A stretch of DNA of 17,879 bases from Phytophthora quininea. Its lineage: Eukaryota; Oomycota; Peronosporomycetes; Peronosporales; Peronosporaceae. The DNA lies in contig JAAVTG010000927.1 of assembly GCA_011947345.1 (NCBI GenBank), forward strand, positions 1 to 17,879. The letters run 5' to 3'. Under the pieces are notes generated by a model. The model had not been told where the DNA came from. It saw nothing but the letters and a program-made list of their open reading frames with translations, and did not search any database. A program made the translations under genes and the position numbers. Below, piece by piece: positions 2,313-16,889 of the stretch (the stretch's first letter is position 1; each line of letters begins with the position of its first letter).

Positions 2313-3343
<1,031 letters not shown>

Positions 3344-5251: not shown

Positions 5252-8200
5252 ATGAAGCTGGGGTCGAGCCAGGACACGTACGGCGCCGCGGGTGAGGGCG
5301 GTCGCGCCAGCAGCTCCATGACCATCTCTTCCGTCATGCACGACATCAAGGAGAAGTTCAAGAACGACGAGGAGGACCAAGGTTCGTCTCGCCTGAGAAA
5401 GATCGCTCGGTTGTTTTTAGGGGAGGGGGCGCTCGCTTCCCCCTGCCCTCCCCTTCCTGTCGCGCTAAACTCTGTTGCGCTGCTCTCTAGTGTCGCCGTT
5501 CCAGGGGCTGGACAAGGCCACGGTGCTGCAGGAGACCAAGATCTTCTCGGATGCCAACACAGTGACGCGCCACCCCAAAAGTGCTGCCAGCTGATCACCA
5601 AGCTGCTTCACATCCTCACGCAGGGGAGCCCTTCACCAGCGCCGAGACCACCGCCGTCTTCTTCGGCGTCACTAAACTCTTTCAGTCCAAGGACGCCAAC
5701 TTGCGGCGAATGATGTATTTGTTCATCAAGGAGGTGGCGGAGGCCACGGCTGCCGACGAGGTACAGGAGCTTAAAGTCAGGGGTGTAAGGCCATAGGAAC
5801 TCGAGACTGACGGTTGCTGTGGCTCCATCAGGTGATCATTGTGACGCAAAGTCTCACCAAGGACATGAGCTCGGACGTGGATCTCTACCGCGCTAACGCG
5901 ATCCGTGTGCTGTGCAGAATCATCGATGTGCGTACATTTTCTAATAGTGCTTTTCAGCGGGATATCTAACTCTGCGTGCTCTGTCGTGCAGGGATCTATG
6001 CTGAACGCCATCGAGCGATACATTAAGCAGGCTATTGTCGACCGCAACGCGCTGGTGGCGAGCTCGGCCCTCGTATCGGGCATCCATCTGATTAAGAACA
6101 ACCCGGAGATCGTGCGTCGCTGGGTCAACGAAGTGCAGGAGGCCGTCAACTCGACCAACGACATGGTGCAGTACCACGGCGTCTCGCTGCTCTATCAGAT
6201 CCGGCAGCACGACAAGCTCGCCGTGTCGAAATTTATTACGCAGCTCCAGAAAACAAACCTGCGCTCCAGTCTGGCGACGTGTCTGCTGATCCGCTACACT
6301 GCAGGTCTCTTGCGTGAAAACGCAAACGGACAGGACTCGGCGCCGCTGTACGCGTTCCTGCACAAGATGCTGCGCCAGAAGAACGAGGTACGAGCACAGG
6401 CATGCGCATTCAGCTTGGGTTTGCAGAGGGGCTGATATGTGCTGCGGTTCTGTTCTTAGATGGTCATTTACGAAGCTGCGAAGGCTCTCTGCGCTCTCCC
6501 CGTGGACGCACGAGACTTAACGCAGGCCATTGTTGTGTTGCAACTGTTTTTGGGCTCGTCGAAGCCGACTCTTCGTTTCGCGGCCGTGCGGACGCTCAGC
6601 CAGGTTGCGTTGACCCAGCCCATGCTGGTCACGCGATGCAACGAGGACATGGAGGCGCTTATTTCGGACTCCAACCGGTCGATTGCAACTCTGGCCATCA
6701 CGACTCTGTTGAAGACAGGTGCGCTGTTCGCGACAACGCGAAACTGTTTGACAGTTGACTGACAGTGTCGTGGGCTATGAAATTGTATTTAGGCGCCGAG
6801 TCTAGCGTGGATCGATTGATGAAGCAGATTTCCACGTTCATGGGTGATATCGCGGACGAGTTCAAGATCGTCGTGGTTGAGGCCATCAAGAACTTGTGCT
6901 TGAAGTACCCCCAGAAACACCGCGTGCTGCTAAACTTCCTGGCTAACTTTCTTCGCGAAGAAGGCGGCTTCGAATTCAAGAAGACCATTACGGACGCGAT
7001 CTTGTTCCTGATCGACCGTATCCAGGAGTGCAAGGAGACGGCGCTGCTTCACTTGTGTGAGTTTATTGAGGACTGCGAGTTCACGCAGCTGTCGACAAAG
7101 ATTTTGCGTGTTCTGGGCCAGAAGGGTCCCACTACCTCAGCGCCAGCACGGTACATCCGCTTCATCCGCAACCGTGTCATTCTGGAGAACGCCCCCGTGC
7201 GCGCTTCCGCTGTTTCCGCTCTCGCTCAGTTTGCGATTCGCGTATCGTCTCTCCGTTCCAGCGTGTCGTCGCTTCTGCAATGCTGCAAGCTTGACGATGA
7301 CGACGAAGTTCGCGATCGCGCTACGATGTATCTGTCCATTTTGGATGGTGACGAGGTGACTAGCCGAACGCTTCTCGTTGAAGACTTCCCTATGAGCGTG
7401 GTGGCGCTCCAGAAATCTATCGACCAGTACGAGCTGCGCCCTACGGACGGCCCTCTGACATTCGATGCCTTGCCCCACGTGGAGGTTGTCGAAGATGTTG
7501 TTGAAACGAGTGCAGATGATGCCGAGGCGGAGGATGAAGTTGTCCAGGCTGACGCTGCACCGGAGCCGCAGGATGTGGCCAAGGAGCTGTACACGGTATG
7601 TCTTTACAGTTCTATCGATCCTATCGGCAGCAGACTAACCTTTTCTTTGTTGTTGAATGCTTCAGATCCCGGAGTTTGCCGAGCTCGGTGCTCTTTTCCG
7701 TTCGTCCAAGCGTATTGAGCTTACAGAGGCCGAGACGGAATACGTTGTTAGCTGCACGAAGCACGTGTTTGCGCAGCACATTGTACTGCAGTTCAAGGTA
7801 CTGAACACGGTGAGCGATCAGCTTCTTACCAACGTGAACGTTGGGTTCGTCATGGAGCCGGAGGATGTGTGGCGGGTTCACTCTGTTGTCCCTCTGGACA
7901 AGCTGGCCTACGGCAAGAACGGCTCGTGCTACCTCTGCCTACAGTATACTGGTGACGGTGTGTACCCTGTCGTTCAGCTCGCCAACGTTGAGGTATGTTC
8001 TTGTTGGCGTTGCATGACTCTGGTATTCACGGTGCCTTACATTTGTTTTGGTTTGCACTACAGCTGAAGTTCAAGGTCCACGAGGTCAACCCGTCGTCGG
8101 GAGAAGTCGAAGACGACGGCTTCGATGAAGAGTACCCGATGGAAGACATCGAAATCGGAGCCGCAGACCTGATGGCAAAGGTTTCGGTGAATGACTTCCG

Positions 8201-8770: not shown

Positions 8771-10451
8771 CTAGCATGGTGCTGTATGTATGTGTGTATA
8801 TGTTTTGGTCATTCTACTGCGAGGTAACATCCAAAGACCCTCAGTCCACAGGCGCAGCAGTATGCCGCGGACTGCGGTCTCATCGCTGGCATCCTTGGCA
8901 AGGTCCTCAATCGAGATACCTGGTGCAGACGCAGAGGATGCGTATAACATCAAAAGCGTCTGCGCTAGTTCTCCTGGGAACACGATGCTCTTCGGCTGCG
9001 GCGGCATCTGCCCAAATGCGGCACTGAGGTCTTCGTCCTCGTCGCTCCCGTCATCATTACCGTCTTCCTCTTCGTTGTCTCCATCGGCGCTACTCGTCTC
9101 GGCAGGCTCGCCATCCTCGCTGCCTTCATCGTCGCCCTCATCTTCCTTGTCGTCGTCGTCGTCATCCTCACAAGAGCAGATGCCCATGTGATGCCGCCGG
9201 CAGTTCGATAGCGAGTAATACACCGCAACAAAAGCCTCCTTTTCCTCATTTTCTCCCATCGAGAGCCGAATGTGCGAGCGGTTCTTGAAGCGAATGGCAA
9301 CATTGCTATCGAGCGGGCTCGCTCCTTCGCCATTTTTCTTCATCTCTGCGGACTCTGTCGGCGGTGGCAACCGGTTAGCAATCACATCCAGCGCAGCCTC
9401 ATCCGCGGACTCCTGTAAGTTTTTCCCCGACGTGTTCAGCTAGTTTAGCCACCAGCTTCTTGCACGACGCCCTGAATTCTTTAGCATCGTCCGAGTCAGC
9501 AGGGAATTGTGTCCCCATGTAGTTCAAGTAGCCAACAGGCAGTCCACGGCGGAACGCGACGTCCGAGTCGAAAGCGTGGCGAATGACGCGGGGCAGCGCC
9601 ACCTCCAGAAAGTTGGCCCACGTGTTGTGCTGGTACACGGAGATCGTCACGTGCGTCGAGAATTGCTCTTCATCAGTGCACGCCTGGTGCACTACGCCGC
9701 GCGGAAAGTACAGTAGATCGCCTTCTTCGACCGTCATCTCCATCCACGGCTCGCCGATTTGGTTCGCACTCAAGTCCGAGCTGTGCTCGCCTGCCAGCTC
9801 CACGAGCGGGTGGTACAGCTTCCACTTCTTCCGGCCTTCCGTTTGCAACACAAACACCTCCACATCATCGTGGTGTGGTGCTAAAGCCTGCGAGCTTGCC
9901 GGCGTCAAGTAGGCACTAGAGCCTGCCAGTCCGCCGAGAGCCTCTTCAAAGGCAGCGTTGAGCTCGTATAGTCCGTCTACGTAGCGCTGCGGCTGGTAGA
10001 ACTGACAGCTATAGCCCTGGTCCAGCAGCCTCGCTACTTGCCGACTCGTGGCGTGTCCGTCCGAGTCCTCGCCGCTAAAGTTCTCGCGCTCCGAGTTGAC
10101 ATAGCGACACACGGTCAGATCCTTGCCGAAGCTCATGCGCGGCTGCTTCTCCATGACCTTGAGCATCTTCTTTCTGAAGAACAGACCGCTCGCAAATAGC
10201 GCGCCTTTGTCCGCTTTGCGTACCAGCAGCGGCTTCTTCTCAAAATGCTCGCTGAGGAAAGTATCAATGGGCATCCCTAAGAGTTTGCCAAGAGTGGCTT
10301 CTGCCCATTGGCGACTGCCCTTGGGGGCCTTTGGGGCGTCATTTTGCGCTGCTGTTAGCTTGGTCGCTGTCTTGGTCTTCTTGTTGGATTTCGGCGCGTC
10401 GGCGTCGGGGCCGCGCTTGCCGCGGTGAGTCTTCTGCTTGGTGCGGCTCAT
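8771..10451 (-). CDS. JmjC ribosomal-protein histidyl hydroxylase, NO66/MINA53 type (frame break)
   Basis: Fe(II)/2-oxoglutarate oxygenase of the nucleolar NO66 (RIOX1)/MINA53 group, which hydroxylates histidines in ribosomal proteins; NO66 is also reported as a histone demethylase. The ATG at 10451 starts MSRTKQKTHRGKRG; upstream codons lack another ATG. A basic nucleolar-type tail is followed by the JmjC barrel: SSAYLTPASSQALAPHHDD, with the iron triad inferred as H193, D195 and H255 (LLYFPRGVVHQAC), then THVTISVYQHNTWANFLE and EFRASCKKLVAKL. The C-terminal winged helix has ANRLPP and ILLRLWTEGLWM. A run of about 45 Asp/Glu/Ser/Gly-rich residues (about 9040-9170) interrupts that domain. The frame breaks near 9413-9428; joining needs one base fewer or two more, e.g. 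one each in the adjacent G and A runs. Length about 560. It is convergent with gamma-COP and divergent from the next gene. Confidence 0.88.
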
Positions 10452-10563
10452 GGCAACCAATGGCAGTTTGAGTATACCTTTTCCATATACAGTACGGATA
10501 GTTACACATAAGTATACGTTTGCGTCGTTTCAATCGAACCATTCCGAGGGAGAGTGGGCGATC
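10452..10563. promoter_or_regulatory. Short divergent promoter, NO66-like / CXXC-FHA gene
   Basis: Only 112 bp separate the two start codons, so they must share control DNA. It contains CCAAT at 10457-10461 and a partial initiator-like CCATTCC near 10539 for the plus-strand gene. No clear full initiator is seen for either gene. Confidence 0.4.
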
Positions 10564-13500
10564 ATGGCGGACGAGCTGGAGCGGCAGCGCGCGCGGCTGC
10601 AGGAGGCCGGCGCCGCGCTGAGGGAGCACCACGCGTCGGCACTCGCCATGCTGGCGGAGAGCAGCTCCGTCAGGTGCGTCTGCCCGTCATAGTTGCTTCT
10701 AAAGATCCCTATAGCAGGCAACTTATTCCGTACCTTGCTTTCCACCCATTTAGCGCCGAGAAACGACGCACCACGGCGGCAGCTAGCGCTGCAGTGAAGC
10801 TACAAGAGCCTGCACCAAGGTGTGTGAGAGTGTATTGACGGGTCTGGGAGGCTTAAGACTAAGATAAATGGTGTATAGTGACCAGGAGAAGGCCGAAGAA
10901 GCCCGCAATGCAGCGGAGCTGGAGCGTGTACGAGTAAAGCTGGAGGAAGCGCGGGCGAAAATGAGCGGTCCATTCTCGGAGATCCCCACGGGACGGGAGT
11001 ATGACTCGCCGCCGGATCCATCGGAAGAACAGGTCTACGACGCTCTGGAGAAGGCGTACAACGCGGCATTCGTGGCGCCTCCAGCTAGCAGCGGGGAGGC
11101 CACGCGGGTGGAGCACACAGACAGTGTTTTCCGACAAGATGAGGCTCAGAGGTGTGGTATTTTACAACAAGCTTCAAGAATCGATTAGCAAAATGATTAC
11201 GAAGCTGATTAAATTGGTTGACGTCGTCGATGCAGATCAGTGTTTGGACAGGCAGCAGACCCGCCAACGACGAAAGTAATTGAGAAGGCTAGCCCTGCAA
11301 AGAAGGTTTGTTTAAAAGTAGTGGTTGTAAGACGTAGATGTCTAACATGGTCCTAATGTTTGAATGCTCGCAGGACGCCAAAGTCGACGAGCGTGCAGGG
11401 TAAGTTATCGCGGGATCATCTATGGTTTGAATTTCCTCATTGTTCTTTGATTTATTTCTTGGCGTTCAGACATGTTGGAACGTTAAAGAGTTTGTGCCTG
11501 TCAACACTCAAGGAGCACGCGGAAGGTCTCGGACAGGAGTTAAGAAGTGATAATGCTGTTCAAGGGAGCAATATGGGGCCAGAATGTACACCATCTGCCT
11601 CGTCGTTCGGTCCCGCCAGTGGTGGGCAAGGGGATGTCAAACCGCGAGGAGGGCAGGAGCTGGAAGTTGCAGAAATTCTTGCTCCAGCTTCTGCGGAATC
11701 AATAACGACAACTGGGTCTGCTCCTCAATCACCAGGGACGGTCCCCGGTCTAACCATGCAGATGGATTCAGATGTGGATATGCAATCTCCCCGTTCCAAC
11801 TTGACAACACTGGAGTCTGGGAATTCCGAAGACGCAATAGTTGAGCGAGCCGACCATCTGTCTCTGAACGATTTCCTTGTCTCGGAGCTTCAGATGTATT
11901 GCTCCCGTTTATTTGACCAACCAGCACCAAAACGCGGGGCATCTGGCGTTAGCGATCTCGCTCAATTTACTGCTTTCCAACTTTACCAAGATCATCAGCG
12001 ATCTCTCATGGATTTTGACGACGAGTGGAAGAGGTAAGTGCTTACACACATGCAGGCATTTCAACCTGATATTTAACCTGTTGCTGGATAGGTCCCACGC
12101 GGACAGTTATCGAGGTTTTGCGGAAGATACACCCGTTGGTGCGCCACAGGGTAGCATAACGTGCAATCCGTTTCAGCAGAACAGCACAGGCATGGGGAGT
12201 GCAGAAGAGTGGGAAACATTGGCAAATGGAGTAAAAGCATCAAGTACGAATTATCAAGCGTGGACGAATGCACCTTTAAACTGGTCAAGTCAAGATCGAT
12301 GTCGTGATTTACTTGCTGCGTACAAGAGGGGCTCCAATGGAATCGTAATCGGGCGTGACAATGGCCACAGCGAACGTGTGCAGGTGGGTGTCTACGTTGC
12401 TCTGAATGGCTGACTATTATCGCTCATGTGTGTTGTGTCTGTTTAGATCGGGAATATATGGGTCAGCTTTGTTCAACCCAGAATACGCCTGCATTTCACA
12501 TGGTGATAGCAGGCAGTGCTGATCTTGCAGAATGGGAGTGTGCATTGTCGTCGAGCAAGTTGACGAAGCTATATCCTTATTGGGGCGACAAGAATGACCG
12601 ACAAAACCTGTTACAGCTATTGAGCAACGAGTATTTCTCCAGCCGCGTGTCAGCACACGTTCTCCTGACAAGTTACGAAGTTTTTATGGAAGACCTATCG
12701 GTCCTCACTTCTCTCCAATGTCAAATCTCTGTAATTGACGTCCCTGGACCAGCCGATCAGATCCCAAAGCTTTGGCCACAATTACTGTCGGGTCGATGTC
12801 GTCAGCGGTTATTAATTTGCCCACCTACCTACGAAATGGACGCTCGAAAGCTGCTGCACTTTGTCGTTCCTGAATTATTCGGATCGCGACGTAAATTGTT
12901 GGTAAGTCTTCCAAATGAAGTGACATAATAATAATTGGGCTAACGTTTTGTTAACTGTACTAGGCGTGGAATTGTGCGGCTTTTAACGACGGTCAAATCC
13001 GCGCATTATGCGATTTGGCGAAGGAGTTCATAATCGATTCAGACCCGAAAAGATTCGTGGAGAAGTTAGAATCGCGCACTCGAGAAAACAGCAAGCGTGA
13101 GAAAGACGCACTTGACAAACTGGACATGAGAGCTGGCGAATCGTCTATTAAGGTTCCTCTGAAGCGCTTACTACACGGTAAGCCATTCGATCGTGCGAGA
13201 GGCCACATTTCTGTGAAGGTACGAAACGACTCCTGCTATCCATTGTGGAGCGCGAAGCTGATGCTTTCATTCTCATTGCTGATTCCAGGGCAAGTTGTTA
13301 TCGCAAAAATTGTTTGCTGAACGGCTCGACCCCCACCTTTCTATCCAGGCGCCAACGAATCTTCCAAAAGTGCGTATCATTCTCTTTTCGTACGTTGTTG
13401 TTGATAGGAATCCAGCTAAGTTCATCCTTTTGTTTCCGCAGAAACGAAGAGGTGGCGGCAATAAACGAATTCGACGATGTGGGAAATGCGCTGGGTGTTT

Positions 13501-14952
13501 GGCTGAAGATTGCATGAAATGTGATCACTGCCAAGACATGAAGAAATACGGTGGCCCTGGTCTTCGGAAGCAATCATGTAGGAACCGGAAATGCTTAAAC
13601 CCCAAAATGCGGGGAGATGCCAGCAAAAGAGAAGACGCAGACGTGTCGACGAGGACGTTGCTGCCGGTGATGCTGACAGCGCCACATATGAGTCCGAGGC
13701 CTATTCTTCCGTGGAGAGTGACAGAGACTCTGTATCAACTGGCACGTATGGTTTCGGGTCGGATTCCGAGTCGCTTCCATATTCGGATGCTACGATCGAC
13801 TCCCCACGAGACTTGTTGCTGCCAGCGAGCGACACGCGTCTCGATGCGATGTCCCGATCTGCGCGGTCACGAGTTATGAGGTGCGGAAATGTGCTGGCTG
13901 CACTGCTCCTGACTGCATGAAATGCCTTTATTGCCTTGACATGAAGAAACACGGTGGGCCTGGACTGCGAAAGCAGTCTTGTAAGGACCGCAAATGCATC
14001 GCCCCAAAGATCGTCGTGTTGAACCAGTCGAAGGGCGGTCAGTATGAGGACGAGCACGGAAATGTGGTGTTCAGCGGCGACCACACTGGTGACTCGTTCC
14101 CAGGCTTCTACGAAGCACCCGATTCAACGGAGACTGATAAACCTGGCAAGCCAACAGAGGTGCTGTCCGTTATTCAGGAATGCGAGCGGTTTGTCGAGCC
14201 TCAGCTGACATTTGTGTGCACACTATGCACGACCGTTTCAGTTCCAAACTCTTGCTTGAGTTTCACGTGCGTCTAGAGCATGCCCAAGCGACGTACGAAA
14301 GTGCAGTCGCTCTGACGAAGTTCGAGCAGGAAGCGAGCAAGTTGTTGATGCATCCGATCTATCAGAATGCCATACTCTGCGCCGAGCCCAAGCAGCAACA
14401 TGACCGTGGGTCGCCGCTGGGATACGCAAAGCTCGAGGTGAGTCTTCTATCGCTGGGCATATCTTCACTAGTTACTGAGTTGCGTTTCCACAGGGCCATG
14501 GTTTCCAGTATTTCCTCCTCGAGCCATTCGTTGTGCTTGGACGAATGAACTTGGGTTGGCGCAAGCTGTACCAAGAGCTAGGCTTCCAGGGTCTTCAGGG
14601 TCTTGCTGCTGGCGACGTTGGGTGCCACGTCGGGAACGACTCGATGATCGCAAATACGCACGCTGTGATCTCGTGGGATGCGCACCAAGGCAGCTTCGTG
14701 ATCGAGTGTCTGAGCGCCCGCTCGTCCATATCCGTGGATGGACAAGAGGTGAGCTTCTCGTCGTCGCCAGTGGTGCTGCGCAGTCGCAACTTGGTTCAGA
14801 TCGGAGCGAGCGTGTTCCATTTCCTACTGCCAAAGACAACAGAGGCGGTAGCCAGTCGTGACAGCACCGAGAGTCGTGCAGGTGTCGCGCCGGTCAGCAC
14901 CGTCATGAGAATCACTACGCAGCAGCTCACGGAGAGCTCCAAGAGAGCGTAA
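10564..14952 (+). CDS. Multidomain chromatin-type protein: degenerate SNF2 N-lobe, two CXXC fingers, C2H2, FHA
   Basis: Proposed exons: 10564-10673, 10754-10819, 10879-11151, 11236-11305, 11374-11399, 11470-12033, 12092-12383, 12467-12901, 12964-13218, 13289-13369, 13442-14437, 14494-14952; about 1,209 residues. Order: charged coiled coil (LERVRVKLEEARAKM); Ser-rich linker; a segment aligning with the INO80/SNF2 N-lobe (residues about 430-690: GSNGIVIGRDNGHSERVQ, LYPYWGDKNDR, HVLLTSYEV, RCRQRLLICPPT, LLHFVVPELFGS); CXXC finger 1 (13460-13597) and 2 (13876-14000); a C2H2 finger with C-x2-C-x12-H-x4-H spacing (14217-14280); and a C-terminal FHA domain of FHL1 type (YAKLEGHGFQYFLLEP, VVLGR, NTHAVISWD, LVQIGASVFHFLLP). 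ATPase motifs are replaced and no helicase C-lobe is seen. Frame breaks of one missing base lie at 13604-13614, 13887-13889 and 14229-14231. The acceptor of intron 7 is uncertain (12446 or 12466). Domain calls are from motifs; the exon chain in 11152-11470 is the least certain part. Confidence 0.8.
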
Positions 14953-15181
14953 AAACTTATAAGGAGGACGGCAGAGGACGATAGCAATATCAGTTGAAGT
15001 GGAGTGTCCTCCAGAATGTCCCCCAAGTGGTGCTACAGGGGCCGCGCGCAAATAGTAGGATTTACGTAAAATTCCGCAGTTTAGCTAAATACGCCCCCCA
15101 GCCAACAGTCCCTCCCAACCAACAAAACAGCGATCGCCAGACTCACCGTCAGTCTTGGTATCCCCGGCAGTAGATAGAATC
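14953..15181. other. Intergenic region between FHA gene and Hsp70
   Basis: 229 bp. It must contain the 3' end of the upstream gene and the Hsp70 promoter. No heat-shock element (repeated GAAnnTTC) or convincing oomycete initiator was found by eye; a C-rich stretch lies at 15092-15120. Confidence 0.4.
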
Positions 15182-16889
15182 ATGGTGGTTGCAGGCATCG
15201 ACATCGGCACGACGCACGGCTGCGTCGGCGTGTGGCACAATGGCAAGGTGAACATCATCGCCAACGACCAGGGCTTCCGCACGACGCCCGCCTTCGTGTG
15301 CTTCGAGGGCGACGAGGTGATCGTGGGCGACACGGCCGTCAACAAGCTGCCGTCCCACGCCGACAGCACCGTGTACCACCTCAAGCGCCTTCTGGGCAAG
15401 TCGCACGCCGAGGTGGCCGACCGCTCCTTCGTCAAGGACTGGCCCTTCGATGTGGCCGCCGGCAAAACGGCGTGGCCCAGGCCCAGACCCAGCGCAACGG
15501 CGAGACGCACGACGTGTCGCCCGTCGAGTTCCTTGCGCTGCTGCTGCAGAACCTCAAGGACCTGGCCGAGGACTTCACTGGCGAGGCGCTCGAGCACGTC
15601 GTCATCAGCAAGCCCGCCCACGCCGACGACAAGCACGCCGAGCTGCTGAACGCCGCGGCCGAGAAGGCTGGTGTCAAGGTGCTGACGTACCTGAGCGAGC
15701 CACTGGCCGCTGTCATCGCCTACGGTTTGGATGAGGCCGCCAACAACCCCAAGCCCGAGTATGTGCTGGTGTTCGACATTGGTGGCGCCACCCACGACGT
15801 GACTCTGATCAACGCCGACAAGGGACTGTTCGAGGTCGTGGCCAGCAAGGGCAAGGACACGCTCGGTGGTGAGGACTTTACTAATGCCGTGTTCGACCAC
15901 TGCGCCAAGTCGTTCCTGCGCAAGACCAAGCTGGATGTCAAGACCAACCAGAAGGCCTCGAGTCGTCTGCGTATCGCCTGCGAGGCTGCCAAGCGCTCGC
16001 TGTCCACCCAGACCCAGGCCAACATCGAAGTCGACTCGCTCATGGAAGGAGAGGACTTTTCGCTCAAGCTGTCGCGCCCGCGCTTTGAGGAACTCATCTA
16101 CGACTACGTGGCCGAGATCATGAAGGAGGTGGACACCATCCTGGAGGAGAACGAGCTCGAGAAGGACGACATTGACCACATTGTGCTGGCTGGCGGCTCC
16201 ACGCGCATCCCGCTGGTGCAGAACCAGATCAAGAAGAGCTTCGAGGGCAAGACGGTGCACGCTCAGCTGTCGCCCGACGAGGTTATCGCCTTCGGCGCTA
16301 CCATCGAGGCTTCGGGTCTTGCCGAGCTCGTGGACGCCCCGAACCGAAGAAGCCCGTGAACATGGTGAACGTGGTGCCGCTGAACCTGTCGGTGGCTCTG
16401 GCCAACGGTAGTGTGTCGGAGCTCATCCAGCGCGACACGGTACTGCCTGCCACCGCGACCGAGACGTTCACGACGACCGAGGACAACCAGGAGGCTGTGT
16501 TCCTGCAGATCTACGAGGGACAACGTCTGATGGCCAAGGACAACACTCTGGTGGCTCAGCTGGCTGTTGCGGGCATCACCCCGCTGCCCAAGGGCGATGC
16601 CGAGATCGAGGTGACCTTCACCGTGAGCACCAAGGGCGTGCTCTCGGTGACGGCCTCGGAGCGCAAGGCTGGTCAGAAGACGCTGGAGGTGACCAATGAC
16701 CCCAAGCGTCTGAGCGCCGCTGACGTCGCTGCCATCGTTAAGAAGGCGGAGGACGCTGCCGATGAGGACGACGAACTGCTCGGCCAGCTGGAGGACGCCG
16801 AGGAGCTCGAGGCCGCCGCGGAGGCAGACGCTGCCGAGACCGCCAGCGCCCCTGTCGTGCCCGTTGTGCCCACGCAGGACCTAGACTAA
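15182..16889 (+). CDS. Atypical Hsp70-family protein with short lid (two apparent frameshifts)
   Basis: Hsp70-type chaperone, intronless, about 569 residues after allowing for two missing bases. The first in-frame ATG (15182) starts MVVAGIDIGTTHGCVGVW with no signal or transit peptide, so it is probably cytosolic. ATPase motifs: GIDIGTT, HLKRLLG (catalytic lysine kept), SEPLAAVIAYG (glutamate kept), VFDIGGATHDVTL (usual GGGT is GGAT) and VLAGGSTRIPLVQ. The substrate-binding beta domain is complete (VVPLNLSVALANG, TFTTTEDNQEAVFLQIYEGQ, GVLSVTASE). The helical lid is cut to about 60 residues of acidic/alanine-rich sequence ending PTQDLD, without the cytosolic EEVD end that recruits TPR cochaperones. 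This resembles ribosome-associated HSPA14/Ssz1-type proteins in part, but orthology is uncertain. Frame breaks are at A run 15464-15467 and at 16336-16341. Confidence 0.92.

Follow-up and report, generated by a model that had tools for sequence, protein, structure and literature searches.

A likely motorless INO80-like chromatin scaffold with tandem CXXC fingers and a predicted FHA domain in Phytophthora quininea and its oomycete relatives

What might be the role of a protein that joins part of a chromatin remodeler to two CXXC fingers, a C2H2 finger and an FHA domain? The question is raised by a single gene at 10564-14952 (plus strand) in a 17,879-nucleotide stretch of the Phytophthora quininea genome (contig C919:1-17879, referred to here as the window, from an assembly of 87.2 Mb in 993 contigs). 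With its splicing placed by hand the gene has 12 exons and a predicted product of ∼1,200 residues; the 11 introns, whose sites were chosen by hand and not from RNA, are all GT-AG and 56-84 bases long, and GT and AG are present at the same exon junctions in a second copy on contig C197. We propose that the gene probably encodes a motorless chromatin scaffold, in which an INO80-like lobe without ATP motifs or lobe 2 is followed by CXXC, CXXC, C2H2 and a predicted FHA domain. The content and order of the domains are clear, INO80 is the nearest relative, the motor motifs are lost in the relatives examined, and few amino acid changes separate the two copies.

A search of 5.8 billion proteins, in which 7991 candidates were scored, yielded 38 relatives (E <= 1e-5), the closest of which are 58-61% identical in several Phytophthora species and 41% identical in [Pythium] brassicae. 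An oomycete name is attached to 35 of the 38, the remainder being one with an incomplete name and two that are unnamed, and the relatives are distributed among Phytophthora, Peronospora, Plasmopara, Hyaloperonospora, Peronosclerospora, Pythium, Lagenidium and Albugo, with others in Saprolegnia, Achlya, Thraustotheca and Aphanomyces. Several carry the source annotation 'Chromatin-remodeling ATPase INO80'. The initial annotation had predicted one polypeptide with this order of domains and proposed that the same order be sought in other oomycetes, and both the protein search and an alignment of 22 of the 38 relatives bear this out: the lobe, the two CXXC fingers, the C2H2 finger and the FHA domain follow one order in all rows that reach far enough, from Phytophthora and Pythium to Albugo and the Saprolegniales, with parts missing or misread in P0017, P0034 and P0037. 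In six Saprolegniales rows (P0025, P0026, P0028, P0029, P0031 and P0033) the lobe is separated from the first CXXC finger by a further pair of C2H2-like fingers, which is missing from the other rows.

The architecture itself is not new. It had been described in the initial annotation as not known from any described family, but it was tabulated in 2014 for P. infestans PITG_03547, a 'CXXC zinc finger containing protein' with '[SNF2 N-terminal], 2x CXXC zinc finger, [FHA]' (PMC4030286, Table 2), a domain list the same as that of the gene studied here. PITG_03547 is one row in a dating study, the row includes neither the C2H2 finger nor the loss of the motor, and the word 'INO80' is absent from the main text of that paper. 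An INO80 origin, a loss of the motor or a function of the family was not found in print within the literature searched, which excludes most subscription papers and all preprints.

Judged by its sequence, the first half of the protein is nearest to the front lobe of INO80 and is not merely SNF2-like. A profile of 22 family members matches INO80 chains in the PDB at E 9.6e-47 to 6e-42, a lead of at least 53 bits over all other SNF2 chains; the top PDB matches of the family are INO80 in 8 of 8 cases, and the tree also gives INO80 as the nearest. The lobe of human INO80 matches the window directly at 12467-12895 (E 2.0e-11, 27% identity), and the predicted model of the lobe takes the SNF2 lobe 1 fold. 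An INO80-like SNF2 N-lobe had been suggested in the initial annotation, which made the idea depend on SNF2 similarity in 12280-13200, and the profile, tree, fold and direct match, which falls within that interval, uphold it. Pfam SNF2-rel_dom is weak (E 0.12) for the exon taken alone and goes unlisted for the read-through, and the SNF2 lobe is thus certain because of the family profile and the human INO80 match, not because of Pfam on the window alone. The INO80 profile alignment reaches upstream over the helices that precede the lobe, although no Pfam match to DBINO was found among the family proteins, and in the predicted model the N-terminal helices are mostly of low confidence, so that the coiled coil proposed in the initial annotation is no more than a possibility. 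Searches of the assembly with PF13892 (DBINO) and PF04795 (PAPA-1) gave no match, but the controls were also unmatched and this is not counted as absence. The N-terminal and lobe features are as follows.

10564-10673, 10754-10819, 10879-11151, 11236-11305, 11374-11399 and 11470-12033, plus strand: exons 1-6, with GT-AG sites and a continuous frame
10564-12033, plus strand: content of exons 1-6, the N-terminal region, which includes a version of the family motif YDxxPDxSDExVYDALEKAYNAAF (from the 22-row alignment) and a low-complexity linker
11470-12033, plus strand: exon 6, carrying a helix that the profile alignment places opposite LNFLITQTELYAHF of INO80
12092-12383, plus strand: exon 7, in which the INO80-like lobe begins
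12321-12383, plus strand: degenerate motif I region, NGIVIG... versus NGILADEMGLGKT in INO80
12447-12901, plus strand: exon 8, core of the INO80-like lobe and site of the match to human INO80 (in view of the relatives and the second copy, the acceptor is taken to be TTTAG at 12446 and not the one at 12466)
near 12731-12760, plus strand: motif II region in exon 8, with VIDVPGPA in place of DEAQ
near 12812-12850, plus strand: motif III region in exon 8, without TGTP
12964-13218, plus strand: exon 9, the lobe end (AWNCAAF...) and then a basic linker, with no lobe 2 after it

The motifs GxGK[TS], DE[AG][HQ], TGTP and RxHRxGQ (motif VI of lobe 2) occur in none of the 38 family proteins, some of which have gene models without the lobe, and a motif-by-motif layout of 20 relatives and the window has the Albugo relative retaining DEA at motif II. 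Helicase_C, representing lobe 2, is not among the Pfam families of the 22 aligned members. Because the ATP motifs and lobe 2 were not found in the relatives, a motor role in the form of ATP-driven translocation seems very unlikely. The INO80 ATPase is the closest sequence over lobe 1 and the preceding helices and has the same fold, whereas the present gene lacks Walker A, DEAQ, TGTP and lobe 2, gave no Pfam DBINO match and has CXXC, C2H2 and FHA domains instead. A remodeler lineage can serve as a platform, as in the case of Eaf1 of NuA4, a motorless scaffold of the SNF2 branch, although Eaf1 belongs to an SNF2 subfamily other than INO80 and is not known to have CXXC or FHA domains.

Alternatively, the protein could be a transcription or chromatin factor that binds CpG and bears an FHA domain, its INO80 piece being no more than a leftover with no separate role. 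The absence of motor motifs from all 38 proteins would be expected of a remnant, as would the distribution of invariant columns over the 22 rows, which are mostly in the CXXC fingers with few in the lobe. Nevertheless, the lobe still adopts its fold in the predicted model, and most of the aligned relatives possess it (it is partial in P0027, P0033 and P0034, and the gene model of P0035 begins after it), and we regard a functionless remnant as unlikely.

The second half of the protein is encoded by the following features.

13289-13369, plus strand: exon 10, basic linker preceding the first CXXC finger
13442-14437, plus strand: exon 11, which includes the first CXXC finger
13463-13594, plus strand: CXXC finger 1 (Pfam 49.5 bits, above the cut-off)
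13610-13880, plus strand: acidic, serine-rich linker (SATYESEAYSSVESDRDS...), in a frame that differs from that of CXXC finger 1 in both copies
13884-13997, plus strand: CXXC finger 2 (Pfam 42.8 bits in the window, 51 bits in the second copy)
14211-14281, plus strand: C2H2 finger (FVCTLC...FHVRLEH), within which the frame switches in C919 and is continuous in the second copy
14494-14952, plus strand: last exon, with the FHA domain at about 14500-14835 and the stop codon at 14950-14952

The two CXXC fingers and the FHA domain of the initial annotation are all recognized by Pfam. The zf-CXXC matches (E 5.2e-12 and 1.6e-10) have eight cysteines, the closest solved relatives of the first finger are KDM2B, KDM2A and MLL1, and the RKQ loop (KKYGGPGLRKQ here) is unchanged in 22 of 22 aligned relatives, which suggests that the fingers may bind unmethylated CpG. 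The CXXC domains of KDM2A/KDM2B, MLL1, CFP1 and DNMT1 share the zf-CXXC profile and the K-F/Y-GG and KQ-type loop, and the present gene differs from these in placing a pair of fingers within a single INO80-like protein. The Pfam families listed for its relatives include no domain of the histone-modifying or methyltransferase kind. A CXXC profile search of the assembly gave four matches, all within the two copies of this gene, with no further match elsewhere. The initial annotation had cast the protein as a reader of unmethylated CpG, and while the fingers are indeed present, the sorting of methylated from unmethylated sites is doubtful, since 5-methylcytosine (5mC) was undetected by several methods in two Phytophthora species (PMC6211444). 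If the same holds here, CpG reading would be no test of methylation.

The predicted C2H2 finger is real in that its C, C, H and H residues are invariant over the 22 rows, though Pfam is weak (E 0.34). Pfam reports the FHA domain at E 3.7e-5, with 24.5 bits where the cut-off is 20.7 (the read-through scores only 20.8 bits), and the predicted fold of the exon is that of FHA domains in general. The residues that we take to be the usual phosphothreonine contacts are R in 21, H in 19 and N in 19 of the 22 rows, with the S of S(xxH) in 8 of 22. Neither the FHA exon alone nor the FHA profile matched a chain among PDB sequences (E <= 0.01 for the profile), and we therefore claim no special FHA subtype. 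Hence the 'FHL1-type' assignment of the initial annotation is not supported, and the link it drew to MCRS1 is likewise unsupported, whereas its idea of an INO80-derived scaffold is plausible.

Is there an ordinary INO80 beside this gene? The assembly contains 65 SNF2-domain matches and, with 50 candidates scored, 29 matches to the human INO80 lobe at E <= 1e-10. The top two (53-54%) come from a single gene, present in two copies, which clusters with an HSA protein of carrot and which we take to be SWR1-like, the SNF2 subfamily names being our own assignments from sequence. Among 31 SNF2 loci, INO80 is the best of 12 panel queries only at L038, and there as a tie. Two other pieces were rejected: that on C193 (59%) is part of an ISWI-like copy, and that on C540 (51% to human INO80 over 83 residues) is 65% identical to the genome's own ISWI-like protein. 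An ordinary INO80 was thus not found among the SNF2 loci compared with the human INO80 lobe in this one assembly. Because YL1 and HSA matches are present, chromatin-complex genes are not broadly missing. Three PF08265 (YL1_C) matches were not used, and L045, the only one read, looks like a HIT-finger open reading frame. Of two actin-family loci examined, one is Arp4-like and one is like conventional actin. A second degenerate SNF2 gene (L080 1-2101, C788:24600-26700) has an HSA match (29.7 bits), altered motifs I and III and a lobe-2-like part, and is presumably reminiscent of Eaf1/EP400-type scaffolds. In protein searches, profile A1 recovered 20 members of the family along with one SWR1-like protein from carrot, and the Saprolegnia lobe recovered 10 family members; both searches work through shared words, and neither shows other oomycetes to lack an ordinary INO80.

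As the assembly shows no ordinary INO80, the likely history is one in which the INO80 ATPase lineage itself was converted. The broader proposal, that oomycetes have no INO80 motor, and that the INO80 ATPase itself, and not a spare copy, was stripped early and rebuilt as a tandem-CXXC, FHA-bearing CpG reader without 5mC to read, is one that we hold tentatively and with somewhat less than even confidence. The presence of an SWR1-like gene, an Arp4-like actin and YL1 in the assembly means that shared modules exist, and the protein might instead regulate another remodeler, for instance the SWR1-like enzyme, as its rival or partner. It would then compete for actin-related or nucleosome surfaces that both use, and would not act alone at CpG. 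This seems improbable, as lobe 2, on which the RuvBL and Arp5 contacts of INO80 depend, is missing.

The gene on C919 is not one open frame, with at least four changes, near 12.45 (just past the exon 8 acceptor at 12446), 13.6, 13.88 and 14.23 kb, and decay to a pseudogene in this organism has to be considered. The second copy, which covers most of the window on C197 at about 96-99.5% identity by piece, is continuous across the start of exon 8 and across the linker, CXXC finger 2 and the C2H2 finger, and has three changes, in exons 8 and 10 and at 13.6 kb, the last common to both copies. Most of the changes therefore differ between the copies, and the non-synonymous to synonymous ratio (pN/pS) between them is 0.19 (24 synonymous and 15 non-synonymous changes in 1156 codons, omitting stretches around the frame breaks), a low value that suggests a working gene. 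On the same contigs the histone H3 gene (2820-3343) is split over two frames with an identical break on C197, and the HSP70 gene (15178-16889) is also broken in both copies. From these shared breaks, the low pN/pS and the continuity of the relatives we infer that the frame changes are mainly sequencing or assembly indels, and there is only a very slim chance that the gene is decaying. That two or more adjacent genes were read as one, as the several frames used in the window could imply, is hardly credible given the 38 database proteins that match across the region, many full-length and in the same order, and the continuity of the second copy over the linker, CXXC finger 2 and the C2H2 finger.

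Elsewhere in the window, an ORC1/Cdc6-like AAA gene (952-2124; Pfam AAA and Cdc6-ORC lid) adjoins histone genes, of which the broken H3 is a handy marker of indel errors in the assembly. An Adaptin_N protein, which we judge to be coatomer-gamma-like, lies in pieces at 5869-7718, and a JmjC_2 protein (9402-10529, minus strand; Pfam E 3.8e-27) is divergent to the gene studied here. The HSP70 gene lies downstream, and an HSP70 domain is also found in the relatives P0022 (Lagenidium), P0036 and P0038 (P. kernoviae), which fits fusion in the gene models with a downstream HSP70 gene; the neighborhood therefore looks conserved.

If the protein is a motorless scaffold, its tandem CXXC fingers would hold it on CpG-rich, nucleosome-poor DNA such as promoters, and methylation would play no part in this if 5mC is lacking, as in Phytophthora. 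By binding a partner in its phosphorylated form, the FHA domain might then recruit a factor under kinase control to CpG-rich sites. The dead lobe and preceding helices may have been retained as a surface on which nucleosomes, actin-related proteins or another remodeler can dock, and not as a translocase.

INO80 is commonly regarded as a remodeler widespread among eukaryotes. It has been lost in some animals, such as C. elegans, and was used as a control across 180 species that include 10 stramenopiles, in a study whose main text does not contain the words oomycete, Phytophthora or Saprolegnia (PMC10538959). If our proposal is true, the oomycetes would be a group whose only visible INO80 descendant is motorless yet conserved and fused to CpG and phosphopeptide readers, which would mean that ATP-driven sliding is not needed for the INO80 position to be useful. 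They would also provide a natural experiment on how nucleosomes turn over when INO80 is absent, and raise the question of what role tandem CXXC fingers may have where cytosine methylation is absent.
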